Positions 23,394 through 34,459 are shown, numbered from the stretch's first letter. The stretch is 64,000 bases of DNA from Devosia sp. (GCF_017744655.1 NZ_JAGIAW010000014.1:248001-312000), one strand, 5' to 3'. Program-made: numbers and translations. The notes: a model not told the origin generated them from the sequence alone.

Positions 23394-23573
23394 AGAACGT
23401 CAGTGGGAGATGCGCTACCATCCCAGTTGGGATGTCGAACAGCGCTATACGGGCCGCAGACGGCGCGTAGCATCCAAAGCTGTTGAATGGCAGATGACGT
23501 GAGGTGGCAAAATTCATCAATGTGTTATAATACGATGCTTGACCATTGAATGCCTGAACTGAACGGTGCCCCG

Positions 23574-23786
23574 ATGCCGAAAATACTATTCATAACCTCG
23601 ATATTGCTCACCGCATTCGCCACCCCCGCCCATGCTTACCTTGATCCAGGTACCGGCAGCATGTTGCTCCAGGCTATTATCGGCGCGGTGGCGGTCGCTG
23701 GGGCCACTCTGTCCATGTATTGGCGTCAGCTGCGCGACAAATTCTCGTTCCTGTTAAAGCGGGCACGAGGCCAGGGTAAGAATTGA
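23574..23786 (+). CDS. Small secreted/membrane protein with AYLDPGTGS motif
   Basis: MPKILFITSILLTAFATPAHAYLDPGTGSMLLQAIIGAVAVAGATLSMYWRQLRDKF: signal peptide plus one TM; overlaps the next gene. Confidence 0.75.
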   Translation: MPKILFITSILLTAFATPAHAYLDPGTGSMLLQAIIGAVAVAGATLSMYWRQLRDKFSFLLKRARGQGKN

Positions 23787-25159
23787 AACCACTCGCCGCT
23801 TCGTTTCGCGATCCGTCTGGCCACATTTACAGCTCGGATGGACGCATTCTTCGGGTCGTAACGCCCACCGGTCTCGACTATTTCTCTCGCTCTCACGGCC
23901 TACTGCGCCAGATGGTGGCAGAAGGGAGATTGGTGGACTTCTCCGAGGTTAATGCCGAGGGGCTGGATTTCGAAGATAATATCGGAGTCGTGCTCGAGCA
24001 TCCGCGTCTCGACTTGCTGTCCATGCCCTATGAATGGTCTTTTTCTCTGCTGAAGGCCGCAGCGCTATTTCACCTCGATTTCCATATGGACCTTCTGGAA
24101 CAGGGCTTCACTCTGTCAGATGCCTCGGCCTACAATGTACAATTTGTCGGCGTGCGCCCAATCTTCATCGATCACCTGTCCATTCGGCCCTACAGCGAGG
24201 GTGAGTTTTGGACGGGGCATCGGCAATTTTGCGAGCAATTTCTCAACCCGCTCCTGCTTCGGAGCTATTTCGACATCGCACACAACGCCTGGTATCGGGG
24301 AAATCTGGAAGGAATTCCGCTGTCTGATTTCTCCCGGCTTCTGCCCTGGCACCGCAGGCTATCGTGGCGAGTACTCAGTAACATCGTTTTGCCAGCTCAT
24401 TTCCAGAAGCGGACCCAAAGCGAAAGAGATGTCCCGGTAGACCTCAGCAGCAGAAGCCTGCCCAAGGCCGGCCTCCTAGCCATGCTCCGCCAGCTCCGCG
24501 CTTGGATTGGCTCGCTCAATCCGGCGAACCAGACAGCTACGACCTGGGCCAACTATGCGGCGACGGCGACTTACGATTCCGAGGAAATGGCAGCCAAGAA
24601 GCGTTTCGTTAAGAAATTTATCGGCGAAGCCGACGGCGGCACCGTGATAGACCTCGGATGCAATACCGGTGACTATAGCGTTGCGGCGCTGGAGGCAGGG
24701 GCATCTTCCGTGGTCGGCTTTGATTTCGATCAGCAGACGCTCGACATCGCCTACCAGCGCGCATTGACAAGCGGTCTCAATTTTCTTCCGCTTTTTCTTG
24801 ATGCCAGAAACCCCTCGCCTGCCCAAGGTTGGCGCGAAGCAGAGCGCGATGCGTTCTCCACGCGGTTCAAAGCCGATACGGTGTTGGCCTTGGCCTTCGA
24901 GCATCATCTAGCCATCGCGCATAATGTGCCGATCGATCAGGTCGTCCACTGGATTACCAAACTGGCTCCCCGCGCGATTATCGAGTTTGTCCCCAAATCG
25001 GACCCGACTGTCCAAAAAATGCTGGCCCTGCGTGAAGACATCTTCGCGTCCTATAGCGAGGATGCCTTTGTAGCCGCGCTCAACCAGGTCGGCAGTATCG
25101 TAGGGCGCGAAGTGGTCAGCGCAACCGGCCGGACGATATACGCTCTGCAGGCGCGTTGA
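23783..25159 (+). CDS. Two-domain protein: N-terminal kinase-like segment fused to a class I SAM methyltransferase
   Basis: N-term LSDASAYNVQFVGVRPIFIDHLSI (D-x4-N plus Asp, like an APH/Kdo-kinase catalytic loop); C-term GTVIDLGCNTGDYSVAALEAGASSVVGFDFD. Confidence 0.7.
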   Translation: MKPLAASFRDPSGHIYSSDGRILRVVTPTGLDYFSRSHGLLRQMVAEGRLVDFSEVNAEGLDFEDNIGVVLEHPRLDLLSMPYEWSFSLLKAAALFHLDFHMDLLEQGFTLSDASAYNVQFVGVRPIFIDHLSIRPYSEGEFWTGHRQFCEQFLNPLLLRSYFDIAHNAWYRGNLEGIPLSDFSRLLPWHRRLSWRVLSNIVLPAHFQKRTQSERDVPVDLSSRSLPKAGLLAMLRQLRAWIGSLNPANQTATTWANYAATATYDSEEMAAKKRFVKKFIGEADGGTVIDLGCNTGDYSVAALEAGASSVVGFDFDQQTLDIAYQRALTSGLNFLPLFLDARNPSPAQGWREAERDAFSTRFKADTVLALAFEHHLAIAHNVPIDQVVHWITKLAPRAIIEFVPKSDPTVQKMLALREDIFASYSEDAFVAALNQVGSIVGREVVSATGRTIYALQAR

Positions 25160-26896
25160 ATGGCCCGCAATCATCTCCTGGTTGCGGGCGCCGCTCTGTT
25201 GTTGCCGAGCATCCTTTTTCTCGGCTTTCCGGCCGAGATCGCGAACGCTAACAGCGCGGAAATCGCCTTTTCGCCTTCGGACCTGTTGCCGTTCGTCTGG
25301 TGCTTCCTGGCGATCTCTGCCGCATCATATGCGGTGCTTATCGCATTTCCCGGTATCGCAGGCGCAATATTGGCCACTATGGCAGCCCTATCTGCTGCGA
25401 TTATCACCTGGAACGTGGTCTTTTCGACACTCGGCCCCACCGATGCTTCATGGCGGCCGGCCGGAATAGCGATTGAACTTGGCAGCCTCGCGATGGCGGC
25501 TGTTCTCTTTCTCCGCCTACCCAGAACATTGATGCTCAGGGCAGCATGTCTGTTCGGCCTGATGAACTTTGCGGTTACGGCGAGCCAGATGGCAACGCTT
25601 CTGACGACACTCACCCCACGCGATGTAGGGGCACAGGTCGAACGTGACTTTCCAGCACCAGTATCAGCACAGGCAAATGTTTATCACATCGTTCTCGACG
25701 CCTTTTCCGAGCAGTTTCTGGAAAGCCAGCTGAACAAATATGCAGACCAGTTAGCCGGCTTCACCTTTTATCCGCGCGCTTTCACGCATTACGGGACCAC
25801 TGATCTGTCGATGCGGGCAGTCTTCAGCGGAACGCTTCATGGTGCCGACTTGGTGGAGTGGGGGGATGCCGCATTTTCGAACGGCCTTCTCAAGTCGCTC
25901 AGCGATGCCGGAATACAGCTGACCCAATACCCTTTCTACAACTCCTTCTGCAGCCCCGATGCCATCGTATGCGAGGCAACCCAGGATCATTTCACCAATA
26001 CAAGACCCGGTTTCGAAAGCTTCAGTTTGATCGACCTTGCCTTTCAAAAAACGATGCCCCCATCAGTCCGCAGCTGGATGCTGACCCTCGGCTCCGAGGA
26101 TTCAGGGCGGCCCGGTTGGGAACTTGGCTTTTCGGTCTCAAGCTGGATTGAAACCCTCCTCAAAGGCGAGGAGCCAGTCTGGCGGCGAAATATTCAGGCG
26201 CAGACGATCCAGACGGTGGATGACTTCATACGAACCGAGCCGCGTTTGGGCGATAGCGGGCGCTACACATATCTGCACGTTATGCTGCCGCACGATCCCC
26301 ATGTATTCGACCCAGACTGTCGATTTGCGCCCGAGGGGCGGGAGGCGGAGAAATCACAACAACAACGCATTGATGATCAATTCGCCTGTGCAATGTTCCA
26401 ACTCAACCGTGTCCTTCAAACAATTAAGTCGCTGTCGCGGTTTGACAATGCCCTTATCCTGGTTCACGGCGACCATGGTTCATCCTATACTTGGGCTTGC
26501 CCGGCTTGGGACAAGGCTCAGGCTTTTGACGAATCAGTATTGGATGCTGATCGTCATGCCGACGAGACGGAGAACTGGTCAGATCAACAGGTTCGGTGCA
26601 TTGCCCAGCCTCTATTGCTTGTGAAACGGCCAAATTCGACGATGTTTAAGGTATCAACCGAGTTAGCAAGTCTCGTAGATATTGCGTCGACTATTCTGGA
26701 CCACTTCGGTTTATCTATGCAAAGCGATGGCTCCTCCCTTCTCATCGACAATCCGCGACGGTGGCCGGTACCAACTTTCTTCGCGACCCAATCTGGCACG
26801 CTGCAGCAAATTCAACGTTTTTCACGCTACGAGTTTGACGGGCTAAGTTGGAGGTTCGTTGGAACGACTGTTAACGGTGCTAAAACAAATCAGTAA
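25160..26896 (+). CDS. Membrane-anchored sulfatase / alkaline-phosphatase-superfamily protein (possible polymer-modifying transferase)
   Basis: N-terminal TM helices then VYHIVLDAFSEQFLE, HVMLPHDPHVFDPDC and LILVHGDHGSSY metal-site-like motifs. Confidence 0.75.
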   Translation: MARNHLLVAGAALLLPSILFLGFPAEIANANSAEIAFSPSDLLPFVWCFLAISAASYAVLIAFPGIAGAILATMAALSAAIITWNVVFSTLGPTDASWRPAGIAIELGSLAMAAVLFLRLPRTLMLRAACLFGLMNFAVTASQMATLLTTLTPRDVGAQVERDFPAPVSAQANVYHIVLDAFSEQFLESQLNKYADQLAGFTFYPRAFTHYGTTDLSMRAVFSGTLHGADLVEWGDAAFSNGLLKSLSDAGIQLTQYPFYNSFCSPDAIVCEATQDHFTNTRPGFESFSLIDLAFQKTMPPSVRSWMLTLGSEDSGRPGWELGFSVSSWIETLLKGEEPVWRRNIQAQTIQTVDDFIRTEPRLGDSGRYTYLHVMLPHDPHVFDPDCRFAPEGREAEKSQQQRIDDQFACAMFQLNRVLQTIKSLSRFDNALILVHGDHGSSYTWACPAWDKAQAFDESVLDADRHADETENWSDQQVRCIAQPLLLVKRPNSTMFKVSTELASLVDIASTILDHFGLSMQSDGSSLLIDNPRRWPVPTFFATQSGTLQQIQRFSRYEFDGLSWRFVGTTVNGAKTNQ

Positions 26897-27040: not shown

Positions 27041-27110
27041 TGCGTTCTTCAATTTGCTTCGATATGATTTGTATTGCGTCAAGATGCTTCATTTTGCTTC
27101 AGCGTGCTAC
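27041..27110. repeat. Seven heptads phased at 10 bp (consensus TTGCTTC)
   Basis: Heptads at 27044 GTTCTTC, 27054 TTGCTTC, 27064 ATGATTT, 27074 TTGCGTC, 27084 ATGCTTC, 27094 TTGCTTC, 27104 GTGCTAC. Confidence 0.7.
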
Positions 27111-27156
27111 AATGGGGATGAGAGGCTGATTAGGCGGGCTGAGAGGATAGTAAAAG

Positions 27157-27690
27157 GTGGCAAGGCGTACGATCTTGAGCGACGAAGAGCTGGCGACAGG
27201 CGCCAAGGCCCTTGCGGACGACCTGCGCATTGGCGAAACCCGCCGACTGAAGCTGGCCAAGGTCATCGACGACCACCTTGCCTGGTTCGACCTAGCTCGG
27301 GCACGCGGCCTGGAATGGACAGACATCATCGACCTCCTGTTCCAGGCCGGCGTCACAAGGCCAGACGGGCGCCCCCTCTCGCGGGGGCACCTGTCCTCCC
27401 TTGTGTGGCGCAAGCTACAGTCGTCGGATGTTGGTGCCCCGGCGCAGGCCACGGCTCAAGCTCGTCTGGCCGAGCCGCAAGAACTTGGCCGGAAACGTAG
27501 CACAGTGGCAGGGATGACCAAGCCCGAGGAAGCTGTGAGCGAGTCGGTCGTGACGGCATCGCCAACCCTCACTCTGAAACCTGCTAAGCAGAACAAGACT
27601 AAGCCGGTCGATGGCGATGGCAAATCGTCCGATCGCGACAAGCTCATTGCTTTCATGCGCCGCTCTGCAAGGGTTCGGCGAGACGAATGA
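27157..27690 (+). CDS. Hypothetical protein, candidate DNA-binding/relaxosome accessory factor of the mobilisation module
   Basis: 177 aa ORF, charged, first gene downstream of the 10-bp-phased array; no confident family. Confidence 0.55.
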   Translation: MARRTILSDEELATGAKALADDLRIGETRRLKLAKVIDDHLAWFDLARARGLEWTDIIDLLFQAGVTRPDGRPLSRGHLSSLVWRKLQSSDVGAPAQATAQARLAEPQELGRKRSTVAGMTKPEEAVSESVVTASPTLTLKPAKQNKTKPVDGDGKSSDRDKLIAFMRRSARVRRDE

Positions 27691-28350
27691 GGGGCGACAG
27701 TCCCTCGGTTGCGGCAAGAAGCCGATACCAGGACTGATGACGAAAGAGCGAGCACCATCAGCCACTCGAATTGTTGGCCGGATCATAATTGTGACTTCGG
27801 GTCGGGCCACCCCGCTCTTTCCGGCCGATCCGCAGGTTTTTCTTCGCAGACTTGGACATGAAATTTCTCCGCGACCGGAAGCGGGCAACCTCTCCCGACC
27901 TCTCAACCCGTCACGGGGAAAGCGCCGCCCTCTCACTCGAGGACGGCGTCACAAACCTGGCCGATAGGATGGGGCAGAATGGCTCAGCACCAGTCGGCCA
28001 GCCTCTTGGCCTTGCCTTCGAGATCGAGCCGGACATCCAAGCTCTGCCGGCACCGAGCCTCGGCGGTGATGCTGTGAGAAATAGAAGACAGACGAAAGCG
28101 GGCCGCCTTCCCTTGCGAGGACGGTTTCGACGATTTTCGTGGTTTGGGCTCTTGAGCATCCGCCCTTGCGCAGGAACGCGCTGCGGCCTTCCTGATCATG
28201 GTGACGATTTGCGATGCTGCACCCGTCACCACACCACCTGTCAACCTCCCTTCCTTCTCCTGAGTTTAAATCGGAGAGACCCCACGCAGCACCCGACAAA
28301 GTTGAGTCTGACTACGATGTCGTATATTGTCGTTTAAAAGGAGTATGTCG

Positions 28351-29175
28351 ATGTCGGATCAACCGAAGACAGAGAAGACTGCGATCGCCCAACGGGTCGA
28401 GCAGCGCATGGAGGACTTGGGGATATCCCAGGCCGAGGTGGCTCGCCGGGGACGGTTCAACAGGGCTTTTATCTCCGACATCATTGTCGGGAGAAAGGTC
28501 AAACTCCGGGACAGGAACTACGTTCGACTGGCCCACGCACTCCTGACCACACCTCAATATCTGCGTTTTGGAATACCACCGACCAAGGAGGAAATGGCGC
28601 TGCTTGGTGCCGGAGGCTTGCTTCCTCCATCGAGTGCGGAAGGATCTGAACAATCAGCCGAAGATATGGAGGCGATTGCGCGGGCGTTCGATGATTTCAG
28701 CCTTGAGCAGTCAAGCCGGATCGAACCGATAGCCGAGGCAAGGCGCACTGTAGGTTGGACCAAAACTCCAGCAATTCCGCTATTTCGCTCCGAAGGCCGA
28801 TCAGATGGAGCGGCGGTTATCAGAAACCCTGCGGCCCAAATGGTGCAGGGGCCGCACTTCGCAGTGCGAGACTGGTACGCGCTTGCCATAGCCGATGCAA
28901 CAATGGCGCCCCGCTACGAAGCGGGCGACTATGTTTATGCCGCTCAGGGCAATGACGTACGGGCGAAAGACTATGTTGTCGTGCGTGTCGCGAGCCGCGT
29001 CGGCCGAACGCCGGTACAGCTTGCCTATGTTCGCCAATTGCTGCGTCGCACTCCGGACGAAATTGTCGTGCGCCAGCTTTCTCCGAGCATCGAAACTGTC
29101 ATTCCGCAAGCCACAGTTCTTAGTATCGATCGGATCGTGGTAGCGGGAGAAGTTTTCGGCGGGTCCGATTTTTAA
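28351..29175 (+). CDS. XRE-type HTH repressor with S24/LexA-like C-terminal domain (atypical catalytic residues)
   Basis: HTH: RMEDLGISQAEVARRGRFNRAFISDIIVGRK; C-term: WYALAIADATMAPRYEAGDYVYA. RBS AAAAGGAG favours ATG 28351; ORF open from TTG 28327. Confidence 0.82.
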   Translation: MSDQPKTEKTAIAQRVEQRMEDLGISQAEVARRGRFNRAFISDIIVGRKVKLRDRNYVRLAHALLTTPQYLRFGIPPTKEEMALLGAGGLLPPSSAEGSEQSAEDMEAIARAFDDFSLEQSSRIEPIAEARRTVGWTKTPAIPLFRSEGRSDGAAVIRNPAAQMVQGPHFAVRDWYALAIADATMAPRYEAGDYVYAAQGNDVRAKDYVVVRVASRVGRTPVQLAYVRQLLRRTPDEIVVRQLSPSIETVIPQATVLSIDRIVVAGEVFGGSDF

Positions 29176-29324
29176 CCATGCGTTCAGCATGACTTGAGGA
29201 ACAGAGGCCCAATGCAGCCATGATATCCGATATCTGATTGACTCTATATCTGACTTTTCTTTATATCAACCCGACATCAGGCGGCACGTAAATCTGTCCA
29301 AGTCTGAGTGATTGGAGTTGAGTT

Positions 29325-29930
29325 ATGCGTAGCAATGAATACGGCACTGTCCTCTCGGTTGGTCGCTACACCCCGTTCGGAACCTTCGCCACATCCGGCG
29401 CCAGCTTTGTGCTCGATGGCCACAGCGTAGCAATGCTGGTCAATCAACTGCCACGCCGTGAGCACTATGCTGATCGCAATATCCTCGAGTATGGGGCGAT
29501 CGAGGTGGCTTTGCTTACCGAAGGTGTTTCGGCCCTCTTGGCCTGGCGGTGGAAGACCGGTGAAACTGAGAATGATTTGCTTGCGGTCGACACCCCGTTC
29601 CATATCGGGCTCGAGGATCCCCCACACCGGCATCTCCCCCTGATCGATGACGGCCGAATTCCGCTTGTGCTCGTGACTCAGGACCATAAGGGGCGGTGTG
29701 TCAGCATGCGCCATGGCGCCATCGGGTCCGAGGTGACCTCAGCTTTGGTGCAATTACGTCGGCACCAGCTCGCCGATATTCACCGGTCCGATTTCGAGGT
29801 TCAGCATCGCCGCAACATCAGGTCGCTGATGCAGCGCCTTCCTGATCCCCTCACGGCCTTCAATGCCGCCGAAATTCGCAGCACTGTCGCCGCTGGCTTT
29901 CCCTTCGAAGATCTGGGCACACGCCACTGA
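29325..29930 (+). CDS. Hypothetical protein of the mobilisation module
   Basis: 201 aa ORF in consistent orientation with neighbours; no recognised domain. Confidence 0.55.
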   Translation: MRSNEYGTVLSVGRYTPFGTFATSGASFVLDGHSVAMLVNQLPRREHYADRNILEYGAIEVALLTEGVSALLAWRWKTGETENDLLAVDTPFHIGLEDPPHRHLPLIDDGRIPLVLVTQDHKGRCVSMRHGAIGSEVTSALVQLRRHQLADIHRSDFEVQHRRNIRSLMQRLPDPLTAFNAAEIRSTVAAGFPFEDLGTRH

Positions 29931-30045
29931 TGTAGACGACCTCCCGGCAGCGCTGCGGGCCGCAGGAAAAGCTGGCCATGGCCTCCGCATCCGCACGGCC
30001 GGGAGCCGGCTTTGTCCCGCGCTAAGGCAGGGACTGAGCTGATGT

Positions 30046-30062
30046 GAGTTAATCCCAAAGAC
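30046..30062 (+). promoter_or_regulatory. GAGTTAATCCCAAAGAC motif, copy 1
   Basis: 17-bp motif 91 nt upstream of the ATG at 30137. Confidence 0.6.
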
Positions 30063-30136
30063 TGAACTCCTGGCCGCCCTCAGGAATAGCGACAGGCAGG
30101 AATTCCCCTGCCAATAGTTCAAACCGGAGATGGCAA

Positions 30137-31330
30137 ATGCCTGACAGCATTACCCCCAACGCCGAAAGCACCTCCTGTGCCTACCCCGAGCGCCCCAGCC
30201 TCGACATGTGCACTGCCGCATTGACCAAATATGCAACGCGCGGCCCGTTCGTCCTTTATGACTGGCGCTCGCAGTGGGAAGGACTCGAAGCGGCCAAGGT
30301 CATGGTGGACGAGATCAAGCAGCTCGGACGGGCCGCGATGATGATGAAGACTGATGCTGACTATTTCGAGGCACTTCATATCTATGTCCCGCCCGATGTA
30401 GAGCAGGCTTTCCGCGCGGGCCTGCCCATTACCGTTGAGGTGATTGCCAACGACGAACGGAAAAAGGGCAACCGTCACCGCCCCAATGACACGGTTGCCG
30501 TCAAGGTGGCCAAGGTGGCTCTGGAGGTCAACGCCTTCCGCCTGCTGGCCTCGCAAACCAAGCTTGAGCATTGGGAAAATCCCGAGCAACATCATCAGAG
30601 CCATACCAGCGCCGGGGCTGCGGCGTCCACGACGCTGGCAGGGGCAAAATCTCACCACGGCAAGGCCATGGTCGACAAGAAGCTTAAGGTATTCGATGGC
30701 TGGATCGATCGCGGTCGCCGCAAGGTGCGGGACTTTTTCAACGCCAAAGAACCGGGTGATGTAGCTCGGGCAGCCACGATCGAGACACAGGAAAAGCTCG
30801 ACACCGGCATGAGCGGGGAAGCGATCAGCCAACACAATGTGGCGCAGATCCGGGCTTTCGAAAAGCATGCAGGGCGGGCCGTGGCGCGCGAAACCGCAAT
30901 GTATCGCTGGAGCACCAGCGATGACGATACGCCCGTTGCCGAGGCGGATGGGCGCGACATTGCCAATGCGCACCTCGAGCGTCAGTCGGCGATCGACTTG
31001 ATGCAGGTGGCCATTGCCGGTGGCCTGAACCCCTCGCAGATCCAAGGCCACTTGCTCACCATGCGCCAGGCGTTCGACACGGGGTGCAAGATCGGGCGCG
31101 TGCTGCGTGGCAATCCGATCACTGTGACCATCGAGGATGCCAACGAGATCGAGAAGGCAATCGCGACCGTGCGTCGTGGCCCGCCAGAAACCCATGAGGA
31201 TGGCTGCTACCACTATCTCGCTGACGCTCTTGCCAAATGCGAGGAAACATTGGGCCTCTCCAAAGTCGCGGCGCGCGTGCGTAGCTCGAGGATGACGGAA
31301 ATTATCACCCCTTCACGCAATCCGAGTTAA
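30137..31330 (+). CDS. Hypothetical protein of the mobilisation module
   Basis: 397 aa ORF; preceded by the GAGTTAATCCCAAAG motif; no recognised domain. Confidence 0.65.
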   Translation: MPDSITPNAESTSCAYPERPSLDMCTAALTKYATRGPFVLYDWRSQWEGLEAAKVMVDEIKQLGRAAMMMKTDADYFEALHIYVPPDVEQAFRAGLPITVEVIANDERKKGNRHRPNDTVAVKVAKVALEVNAFRLLASQTKLEHWENPEQHHQSHTSAGAAASTTLAGAKSHHGKAMVDKKLKVFDGWIDRGRRKVRDFFNAKEPGDVARAATIETQEKLDTGMSGEAISQHNVAQIRAFEKHAGRAVARETAMYRWSTSDDDTPVAEADGRDIANAHLERQSAIDLMQVAIAGGLNPSQIQGHLLTMRQAFDTGCKIGRVLRGNPITVTIEDANEIEKAIATVRRGPPETHEDGCYHYLADALAKCEETLGLSKVAARVRSSRMTEIITPSRNPS

Positions 31331-31340
31331 TCCCAAAGCC
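31324..31340 (+). promoter_or_regulatory. GAGTTAATCCCAAAGCC motif, copy 2
   Basis: Overlaps the stop of the 397 aa ORF, 82 nt upstream of the ATG at 31406. Confidence 0.6.
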
Positions 31341-31405
31341 GAGCGCGGGTGTTTCGCCGCAGGATTTTTCCATCGGGGTGGCAGTGCCCCCTAAGGAGAA
31401 GTCGA

Positions 31406-32242
31406 ATGAAACATCTTACCAACACCCTGATGAGCGGCACCGCGCCGCTCATCGTTATCATCGCCAACGAAAAGGGTGGCCAGGGCAAGTCACTGACCGG
31501 CCTCGCGATCGCTGACTATGCGCATCTCTGCCAGATCCCGATTGGCGTCGCCCAGATCGACAATCAGGCTCGTCTGAGCAAGGCCCTCGGCCGCAAGGTT
31601 CTGACCATCGATGCGGTGCCCGGAAATGCCCGCCGCGACCCGGCTGCAGAGGCGCGCAGCTTCACCCCGCTTTACGGCTTCCTCCAGAAAGGCGCGAAAG
31701 CCAATGCCAGCATCCTCGTCGATGTCGGCGCCAACCAGGCGCAGCGTCTGGCGCATTGGAGCGGTCTCGTCGATCTTGAGGAAGACCTTGCTGCCTGGGG
31801 TTTTAAGACGGTCATCGTCGTGCCGTTCGTGGCGGAAGCCGAAGGTATTCGCCAGGCCGGCAAGACCGCCGAACTTTTGGGCAAGGCTTTCACAAATGCC
31901 CATCTGGTCCTGATCGAAAACGCGCGCGATGGATCCTTCGAAGCGCTTCATCCCGCTTCCGATACGGCCCTGGCCTATCGCGAAGTCATCGAGCCGCTCA
32001 AATCGTCCGCCTCGGTTCTGACCATGCCGGCCGTCGAGGCTGGGTCGTGGCGCCTGTTCGAGGCTGGCAATTCCCGCCTCATCCACGTGGCGGGCATGCC
32101 GATCGGAAAAGTCATGGCGCTCACCGGCTTGCCTCACCCGGAGGCCAAGATCTCCCGCGGTGATGTCGCCGCCTGGGCGGGCACCTTCTTTGCAGAACTG
32201 GACCGTGTCTTGCCCTGGAACCAGGAGGGCGACGATGCCTAA
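31406..32242 (+). CDS. ParA/MinD-like P-loop ATPase of the mobilisation module
   Basis: IVIIANEKGGQGKSLTGLAIADYA (deviant Walker A); RBS AAGGAGA before ATG 31406. Confidence 0.85.
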   Translation: MKHLTNTLMSGTAPLIVIIANEKGGQGKSLTGLAIADYAHLCQIPIGVAQIDNQARLSKALGRKVLTIDAVPGNARRDPAAEARSFTPLYGFLQKGAKANASILVDVGANQAQRLAHWSGLVDLEEDLAAWGFKTVIVVPFVAEAEGIRQAGKTAELLGKAFTNAHLVLIENARDGSFEALHPASDTALAYREVIEPLKSSASVLTMPAVEAGSWRLFEAGNSRLIHVAGMPIGKVMALTGLPHPEAKISRGDVAAWAGTFFAELDRVLPWNQEGDDA

Positions 32243-32609
32243 GCGCCGCAACCAGTTCGAGGCCGATGCCGCGGCCGCCCGGATCGAGCGCGCCAAAGCC
32301 GAAACAGCTTTGGTGGGGCACCTGGCCAGTGAGATCAAACGTGATCTCGCCAGTTTTGACCCCACGCGCCTTGCAGGCCTCGGCCCCCAGGGCCTGCGGG
32401 GATTGCTGCAGGCACTTGAGCTCACGGAAGAGGAAGGCGGCGCTATGGCGCCGCCCTCCGACCACACGGCATTGCCCGGGACCATCAAGGGGTGGGCCGA
32501 TCGCCGCCGTCCCGAACCCTGGCATTGGATTGGCGAAGTGTCTGTTGCTTCGTTTTTGGGGCTGGCTGCAGCCCTCGTTCTATTCATGGCTATCGGCATT
32601 CTGTCGTAA
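32235..32609 (+). CDS. Small protein with C-terminal TM helix
   Basis: ATG 32235 overlaps the ParA-like stop; C-term SFLGLAAALVLFMAIGILS. Confidence 0.65.
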   Translation: MPKRRNQFEADAAAARIERAKAETALVGHLASEIKRDLASFDPTRLAGLGPQGLRGLLQALELTEEEGGAMAPPSDHTALPGTIKGWADRRRPEPWHWIGEVSVASFLGLAAALVLFMAIGILS

Positions 32610-32628
32610 CCGCATTCAGGAGACTGAT

Positions 32629-34449
32629 ATGTACACCTCCAAATCCTCGGCTCCGGCTCTTCTCGGCGCCTTCTCAGCCATGGTGATCGCCATGGCTCTG
32701 TCCTTGCTGACGCTGCTTTTACACCCAAACCCTACGATGATTGAGCTCGACAAACAGCTCATCCCATTCGACCGCGTTACTATCTCTACCGTGGTCATCG
32801 GCGCCTTATCGGGCGCCTCTTGCGATGCCGCAGTTGACGAATTGATCGGCGTAGAATGGATCGACTGTCGCCTCGCCCCCGTGACTGACCTGCTGGAAGC
32901 AGCCTTCAACGCTCCAAGGATGCGCTATTACTTTGCCGCTTTAGCAGTGGCCGGAATCATCGCTTTCGCCATGGCTATGCGCTCCATTGATGCAACGACG
33001 CCAAAGCGGGAACTGGATCGCACCGTCAAGGGCAGGCGCCCGGTATACGATCTTGACGCGCGCAACAGCCTGCGTTCAGAGATCAGGAAAACGGGTAAAC
33101 CGGCCAGGGACGGATTGTGGGTCGCACCCCATGTGCAGCTGACGCCTGCACTTGAAAGCTACAATCTCCTCGGGCTCGGCACGCAGGGATCAGGCAAGAC
33201 TTCGCACTTCCGCGCCCTGATCGAGCAGTTTGTCGGCCGTGGCGACAGGGTTTTCATTCATGACGTCAAGGGCGACATGACAGCCGGGTTGCCCGTTGAC
33301 GACTTTATTCTTGTCGCGCCGCACGACGCCCGCAGTTGGGCTTACGACATTGCTGCCGACATCAGGAACCACCATCACGCTTACGAATTCGGCAAGCGAA
33401 TGGTGGATGAGGATGGCGACGACCGCATGTGGGGCAAGGGCGGCGGATCGATCACGGGCGATCTGACCTGGGGCTTGGCAAAGGACCAAAAAGGGAAATG
33501 GAGTTGGGGCGAGCTTGCCCACACCCTGCTGGTGCCCGGCGGGCAGATGAAGCTCAGACTGGAGGAACTGGGCTCGATCAATGCCAGCCGGCTGATCTTC
33601 GGCAGCCAGGATCCTGAAGAAAACCGCACCACCATGAGCTTGTTGATCACGATCTGGATTGCGGCGACCACCATTATCCTGCCGCTGGCCCAGGCCTGGG
33701 CGCAGGTCCCACCAGCCCGTCGTTTCAGCTTGCGTCTCTGGGTAAACCGGAAAGGAAAGCTGCCCGGCACCATCGTCCTGCAGCGATCCTCGGAATACGC
33801 CTATCTCTCCACGGCACTTGGCGGGTTTCTGATCGATCGGCTGCTGGGCCTTGCCATGAGTCCGGATCGAGATCGTAATCGTGGGGGCAAACTCGTGCTT
33901 TGCTTGGATGAGCTTCCGGAGCTGGGCGTCATCACCCGCCTTCCCAATGCCTTGAACATTGGTCGCGAACTCGGCCTTGTCACCATCGGCGGTGTGCAGG
34001 ATATCGCGCATCTGGTCAAAGTTTACGGCACCGAACTCGCCCAGGTGCTGCTCGCCCGATTCCGTATCAAGGCCATCCATCAGCTTGACGCAGGCGACAC
34101 CGCGGACCGGATCAGCGTGCTCATCGGCGACCGCACGATTTTGCGTCCAAGCCCCTCAGAGTTCAATGCCAAGACCGGCAAGGCTGTACTCGTGCGTGAG
34201 AAGGAGCGGGTGCTCGATCCCTACATGTTCGAAACCGAGCTTGGCGTGCGAAACCACAGGGGTACATTGGTTTCGAGGACGCTGATCATGGGCCTTGGCA
34301 ATCCAGCAATCCTCGACATTCCGATTACCGGGTGGTCAGAACGCCGCCCCGGGCACGTGCCGGCTGGCTGGGTCGACCAGCTTGAGCAGTCTGTTCACAA
34401 GCCGAAGGCCCGACGTCAGATCGACGACGAGGGGACGGAACAGAGTTAA
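32629..34449 (+). CDS. Type IV coupling protein (VirD4/TraD/TrwB-like)
   Basis: N-terminal TM helices; Walker A LGLGTQGSGKTSHFRALIEQF; Walker B LVLCLDELPELGVI; FIHDVKGDM. RBS CAGGAGA before ATG 32629. Confidence 0.88.
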   Translation: MYTSKSSAPALLGAFSAMVIAMALSLLTLLLHPNPTMIELDKQLIPFDRVTISTVVIGALSGASCDAAVDELIGVEWIDCRLAPVTDLLEAAFNAPRMRYYFAALAVAGIIAFAMAMRSIDATTPKRELDRTVKGRRPVYDLDARNSLRSEIRKTGKPARDGLWVAPHVQLTPALESYNLLGLGTQGSGKTSHFRALIEQFVGRGDRVFIHDVKGDMTAGLPVDDFILVAPHDARSWAYDIAADIRNHHHAYEFGKRMVDEDGDDRMWGKGGGSITGDLTWGLAKDQKGKWSWGELAHTLLVPGGQMKLRLEELGSINASRLIFGSQDPEENRTTMSLLITIWIAATTIILPLAQAWAQVPPARRFSLRLWVNRKGKLPGTIVLQRSSEYAYLSTALGGFLIDRLLGLAMSPDRDRNRGGKLVLCLDELPELGVITRLPNALNIGRELGLVTIGGVQDIAHLVKVYGTELAQVLLARFRIKAIHQLDAGDTADRISVLIGDRTILRPSPSEFNAKTGKAVLVREKERVLDPYMFETELGVRNHRGTLVSRTLIMGLGNPAILDIPITGWSERRPGHVPAGWVDQLEQSVHKPKARRQIDDEGTEQS

Positions 34450-34459
34450 TCCCAAAGAC
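34443..34459 (+). promoter_or_regulatory. GAGTTAATCCCAAAGAC motif, copy 3
   Basis: Overlaps the stop of the coupling-protein gene, 89 nt upstream of the ATG at 34532. Confidence 0.6.

Follow-up and report, generated by a model that had tools for sequence, protein, structure and literature searches.

We use a combination of profile searches, structure prediction and gene neighborhood comparison to study a three-gene module in a 64,000-nucleotide stretch of Devosia sp. DNA (GCF_017744655.1, NZ_JAGIAW010000014.1:248001-312000; hereafter the window, with positions counted from its first letter). The module occupies positions 23,574 to 26,896 on the + strand and encodes a small membrane protein of 70 amino acids (aa) with the motif YLDPGTGS, a 458-aa fusion of a kinase-like domain and a methyltransferase, and a 578-aa membrane protein of the alkaline phosphatase (AP) superfamily. 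By sequence comparison the locus belongs with NoeA and NoeB, and its third component, nearly constant among related loci, appears to be unnamed in the database records consulted. From homology, linkage of the genes, fold, and the active sites that are conserved in both domains of the NoeA-type protein and in its AP-fold partner, all of them observed, we consider the chances about even that this module produces and processes a methyl-phosphate decoration on an envelope molecule or an exported (secreted) one. The main support for this predicted chemistry is a residue-level match between the NoeA-type protein and WbdD, the enzyme that adds the methyl-phosphate cap in E. coli O9a.

The three open reading frames (ORFs) lie where an initial annotation, made from the sequence alone, had placed them, with the overlapping and abutting starts it described. 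The small protein is encoded at 23574..23786 (with an alternative in-frame ATG at 23550), the fusion at 23783..25159 from a TTG start that overlaps the TGA of the small gene, and the AP-fold protein at 25160..26896, its ATG directly following the TGA of the fusion gene. Pfam gives no family match for the small protein or for the N-terminal half of the 458-aa protein. In a tblastn search against plasmid records, the 458-aa protein matches Sinorhizobium NoeA (S. meliloti/S. medicae) over its full length, with 53% identity and 99% coverage. The gene order on S. meliloti pSymA is nodL, an unnamed 71-aa ORF, noeA and noeB; the 71-aa ORF (MPIIMSVVGFLILSIVPAHAYLDPGTGSMLVQ...) is homologous to the small protein of the window, and NoeB holds the position that the 578-aa protein holds here, the two being about 20% identical with catalytic residues common to both. 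Because the NoeA match is full-length and the order small gene, noeA, noeB is the same, the window's locus is of the noeA/noeB type, and the earlier statement that no described pathway could be assigned to it falls away. An acetyltransferase-type gene precedes the module in both cases (nodL in S. meliloti, a hexapeptide PglD-like gene here), a likeness of type.

The nodL-noeA-noeB genes act in host range toward certain Medicago species, and a part in modifying the Nod factor has been hypothesised for them (PMC9048898); this host-range role is assigned to an operon under nod box n5 (Ardourel 1995, as cited in PMC9758233). Unlike the S. meliloti operon, the window's locus has no nodulation context, and a search of the window's genome finds no NodA; run on pSymA as a positive control, this search recovers it. 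The substrate here is therefore not a Nod factor, and we reject Nod-factor modification in this organism. Closer to the present question is a 2022 survey (Krysinska et al., PMC9758233), which describes NoeA homologs including Legionella anisa Lani_1194 as kinase-methyltransferase fusions with conserved neighbors: the Lani_1194 family has an Arg (R38) at the K72 position and conserves the equivalents of D166, N171 and D184, the neighboring Lani_1195 is AP-fold, and Lani_1193 occurs in 65% of the family's neighborhoods. The 458-aa protein shares the fusion, the Arg, the D/N/D residues and the AP-fold neighbor. That study differs from ours in treating the family as a putative effector and in linking WbdD to another family, Lcin_0519. 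The WbdD residue match to NoeA is a new point, one that we did not find in the NoeA literature consulted on this family.

The C-terminal S-adenosylmethionine (SAM) methyltransferase that the initial annotation had seen is a class I domain at 24578..25156 (Pfam PF13649, E 9.5e-07, from about residue 285). Regarding the METHYLTRANSFERASE chemistry, a nine-sequence profile has WbdD as its best PDB sequence match (E 7.3e-08), and the alignment takes in the methyltransferase and also, more weakly, the catalytic loop of the kinase, whose D, N and D are in register. With WbdD genes drawn from annotated plasmids, an HHalign comparison of the two methyltransferase domains gives E 1.1e-11 (cross-domain controls give E above 0.6) and places H374 and H375 (24902..24907) and R450 (25130..25132), each invariant in 43/43 sequences, on WbdD H132, H133 and R203. 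In WbdD these residues lie grouped about the methyl group of SAM, and H132A, H133A and R203A mutants retain phosphorylation and lose methylation of the phosphate (PMC3482155). R450 is the more telling residue because the related methyltransferases NodS and RebM do not share R203 (PMC3482155). WbdD Y16, which is needed for methylation, falls outside the HHalign alignment; Y258 of the 458-aa protein is invariant and is a candidate only. Judged by these alignments, NoeA and WbdD have related methyltransferases, and the methyl-phosphate chemistry that had been guessed at gains residue-level support. Like the 458-aa protein, E. coli O9a WbdD (PDB 4azs) carries a kinase and a methyltransferase in one chain. 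It differs in having a C-terminal coiled coil (PMC3482155), whereas the 458-aa protein has no residues beyond the methyltransferase, and in its kinase domain, which is distinct from that of NoeA and weakly similar to it.

The N-terminal half of the fusion is supported as kinase-like by its modeled fold and by its residues. The D-x4-N plus Asp noticed earlier correspond to D113-x4-N118 (24119..24136), which aligns to the WbdD kinase loop, and to D130 (24170..24172), the putative kinase metal-binding Asp; all are invariant in 43/43 sequences. R24 (23852..23854), at the position of the K72 lysine of protein kinase A (PKA), is Arg in 42/42 readable homologs and is the equivalent of Lani_1194 R38. 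Together, R24, D113, N118 and D130 match PKA positions K72, D166, N171 and D184 as named for Lani_1194 in PMC9758233, where a kinase-like N-terminal domain had already been concluded for that homolog. An AlphaFold2 model of the 458-aa protein, built from an alignment of nine sequences, has a predicted template modeling score (pTM) of 0.81 and a mean predicted local distance difference test (pLDDT) of 76. A Foldseek search of this model against a viral library finds both methyltransferases and Ser/Thr kinases, including a Cedratvirus kinase (E 1.3e-4, probability 1.00). Another Foldseek match, the giant-virus protein A0A481Z196 (Mimivirus LCMiAC01), covers the whole two-domain model with a template modeling (TM) score of about 0.6.

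The 578-aa protein matches the Sulfatase family PF00884 (E 1.4e-10) and carries the AP-superfamily metal-site motifs that the initial annotation had reported: D180 (25697..25699; D in 45/45 homologs), H373-x4-H378 (26276..26293; H in 44/45 and 43/45) and D438-H439 (26471..26476; D in 45/45, H in 41/45). The sulfatase label that came with these motifs stands for the fold and not for the chemistry. In place of the C/S-x-P-x-R catalytic site of formylglycine sulfatases we find T214 (25799..25801), the predicted nucleophile, and the 45 homologs have Thr (40) or Ser (5) here and never Cys (0). Since the nucleophile is Thr or Ser and never Cys, we reject a formylglycine sulfatase role, and the protein parts from the PF00884 sulfatases in its chemistry. 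Its residues fit a phosphotransferase or a phosphodiesterase, LtaS and EptA being examples; these two are membrane phosphotransferases with a Thr nucleophile and likewise combine a membrane N-terminus with an AP-fold catalytic domain and D/H metal ligands. Hydropathy places hydrophobic segments at the N-terminus only, so the catalytic domain is expected to lie outside. Matches of this protein to Caspase-8 and to a metalloprotease (E 0.04 to 0.8) we take as chance, and matches to beta-carotene hydroxylase and antiporter families are far below the cut-off.

The third component, the small protein, looks like a single-transmembrane protein with a cleaved signal peptide and an invariant N-terminal Tyr. 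The predicted signal peptide (23574..23636) ends in AHA, and a small or aliphatic residue-x-Ala precedes the Tyr in 39/41 homologs. The YLDPGTGS motif (23637..23660) would then form the mature N-terminus at the outer face, its Tyr invariant in 41/41 motif-bearing homologs, followed by a transmembrane segment predicted by hydropathy (23661..23717) and then a basic tail; the same 41 homologs have one hydrophobic segment after the Tyr and then usually a basic tail, consistent with an N-terminus outside and a tail inside. One filamentous-phage-like homolog (L046), from a phage-like contig that also carries a Zot/gpI-type gene, has no signal peptide and begins MYLDPG, which is exactly the predicted mature end; the small protein of a second such contig (L047) also lacks a signal peptide, the two starting MYLDPG or similar. 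The YLDPGTGS motif is not mentioned in the literature consulted. Where the small protein occurs with no adjacent NoeA (loci L080-L086), a Sulfotransfer_3 gene lies alongside in 7/7 genomes, with an ASST arylsulfotransferase gene as well in five of them and an AP-fold gene in one, so that a parallel sulfate module at these loci is possible. These neighbors suggest that the small protein serves a general arrangement in which an inner-face enzyme that adds a group is joined with an outer-face partner. The Sulfotransfer_3-linked relatives carry YVGPG, YIGPG and YIDPN forms of the motif.

We find that the three-gene arrangement is not chance. In ten related loci inspected from diverse genomes, from which (together with S. 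meliloti) the profiles were built, the small protein, NoeA and the AP-fold gene recur together in varying order. A profile search of 399 genomes of the phylum finds NoeA in 9 and the small protein in 16, and in 9/9 of the NoeA genomes the small protein lies within a few kb of noeA; the nominal Fisher p of this association, 1.8e-14, is inflated by training overlap. Because most of the nine NoeA loci trained the small-protein profile (two, G097 and G125, did not), the fairer test of linkage is a held-out set of 28 loci outside training (20 from a class search, 5 plasmid and 3 viral contigs), one of which, from Rhizobium sp. T1473, is closely related to a training sequence. Here the small protein is present in 24/28, usually abutting noeA, and the AP-fold gene in 23/28, in agreement with the co-conservation that the initial annotation's reading called for. 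The small gene and noeA lie on the same strand in 34/35 loci that have both, frequently with a 4-nt overlap. In the window's own genome the AP-fold profile matches one gene only, the window's, so a background of such genes does not account for the AP-fold linkage. In four loci (L115, L117, L119 and L122), noeA adjoins either a split AP-fold gene or two AP-fold genes. Homologs also occur in Planctomycetota, Gemmatimonadota and phage-like contigs, and an annotated phage collection yields none. The full small-NoeA-AP module is found in the phage-like metagenomic contigs L046 (2582-5533) and L047 (3844-6236), which have Zot/M13 gpI-type genes, and the module is also carried by a viral contig with tail-fibre-type genes (L045, 3681-7520), possibly as surface-modifying cargo.

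The substrate, activities, reaction order and protein contacts that we infer for the module can be put in three steps. The NoeA-type protein, a soluble two-domain enzyme, would act at the cytoplasmic membrane, on its inner face, where its kinase domain would add phosphate to a hydroxyl group on a membrane-linked sugar or lipid; its methyltransferase would then methylate that phosphate, as WbdD does on the O9a polymannose of E. coli. The 70-aa protein, with its signal peptide cleaved, one transmembrane helix, YLDPGTGS outside and the basic tail inside, may recruit NoeA to the membrane and couple it to the outer-face enzyme. The AP-fold enzyme, with its membrane-anchored N-terminus, outside catalytic domain and Thr nucleophile, would transfer the methyl-phosphate to a final acceptor or, alternatively, hydrolyse or remodel the methyl-phosphate group.

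A number of observations weigh against this assignment. We know of no member of the module whose substrate is known. The two-His pair is found in NodS or RebM as well, and is thus not unique to phosphate methyltransferases (PMC3482155). WbdD has the reverse domain order from the kinase-then-methyltransferase order here and works in an O-antigen system with an ATP-binding cassette (ABC) transporter, whereas the window has a Wzx-type flippase nearby; among the scanned window neighbors, which include this Polysacc_synt gene, there is no wzm/wzt-type ABC exporter. In sequence the kinase domain resembles solved kinases weakly: HHalign of the NoeA and WbdD kinase domains gives E 0.0012 with a probability of only 19%, and a kinase-domain profile finds only RIO3 among PDB sequences (E 0.93), which is suggestive and not proof. 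The best 50 Foldseek matches of the model in the PDB are methyltransferase-bearing entries only, WbdD and NodS included. Conservation of the AP-fold partner is low (about 20% identity), and its reaction may therefore vary. Lastly, several relatives lie outside polysaccharide loci, among unrelated housekeeping genes; the module is therefore self-contained, and the initial annotation's assignment to the surface polymer is only partly supported. Some homologs, the window's module included, do lie inside polysaccharide clusters.

The same genes can be read in other ways. The kinase and methyltransferase may act on different positions or substrates, with one sugar phosphorylated, another O- or N-methylated, and the phosphate removed by the AP-fold enzyme after export to leave a methylated glycan. 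The shared two-His pair and the presence of NodS among the Foldseek matches would suit this scheme, as would an outer-face phosphatase-fold enzyme; WbdD being the best PDB sequence match argues the other way, and we regard the scheme as unlikely. We hold a similarly low opinion of a transfer relay, in which the product of NoeA is a methyl-phospho (or phospho) lipid or carrier and, once flipped across the membrane, is used by an EptA/LtaS-like AP-fold transferase to modify many periplasmic acceptors, with sister modules of sulfotransferase and arylsulfotransferase doing likewise with sulfate. The Thr nucleophile, as in LtaS and EptA, and the genes beside the small protein (Sulfotransfer_3 in 7/7 non-NoeA genomes, ASST in 5, AP-fold in 1) speak for such a relay, and ASST enzymes transfer sulfate without 3'-phosphoadenosine-5'-phosphosulfate (PAPS). 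Against it, no carrier is known, the sulfotransferase association rests on 7 genomes, and some NoeA loci have no AP-fold gene. A module that serves small secreted signals only, with no envelope-polymer role, along the lines proposed for Nod factors in S. meliloti and for Legionella effectors or signals, we consider very improbable: the nodL-noeA-noeB host-range operon (PMC9048898; PMC9758233, citing Ardourel 1995) speaks for it, and the NodA-free genome of the window, the homologs in Planctomycetota, Gemmatimonadota and phage-like contigs, and the occurrence in polysaccharide clusters speak against it.

Methyl-phosphate decoration could also be one case of a wider two-compartment scheme, a tentative idea that we would not bet on, in which a YLDPG/YVGPG membrane protein bridges a cytoplasmic enzyme that adds a group to a matching periplasmic transferase, the pairs being NoeA-type and AP-fold proteins for methyl-phosphate and a PAPS sulfotransferase and an arylsulfotransferase for sulfate. 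In its boldest form, which strikes us as far-fetched, the N-terminal tyrosine itself would carry the group.

The noeA and noeB genes have been recognised as host-range nodulation genes since 1995, with a role only hypothesised in the literature consulted, and the WbdD residue match gives noeA a concrete and falsifiable candidate chemistry, methyl-phosphate. The near-universal small partner is a missing component, and work on noeA or noeB as single genes may have overlooked an essential subunit. The wide spread of homologs implies a general envelope or secretion function and not a nodulation speciality.

The module's neighbors in the window are sugar genes: a UDP-GlcNAc 2-epimerase, the Wzx-type flippase, a glycosyltransferase, a GDP-mannose dehydratase and the PglD-type acyltransferase. 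The guanine-plus-cytosine content is 55.5% in the module and 56.0% in the sugar cluster upstream. Directly downstream, 27100-34450 holds a block with a helix-turn-helix regulator and ParA-like and TraG/VirD4-like genes that is probably an integrated mobile element, which would put the module at the sugar cluster's edge. Immediately upstream of the small gene, a weak promoter-like site with an extended -10 TATAAT (23504..23531, + strand) matches the consensus at 10/12 positions in a consensus scan only, a scan that over the whole region finds 4 sites where 2.3 are expected.

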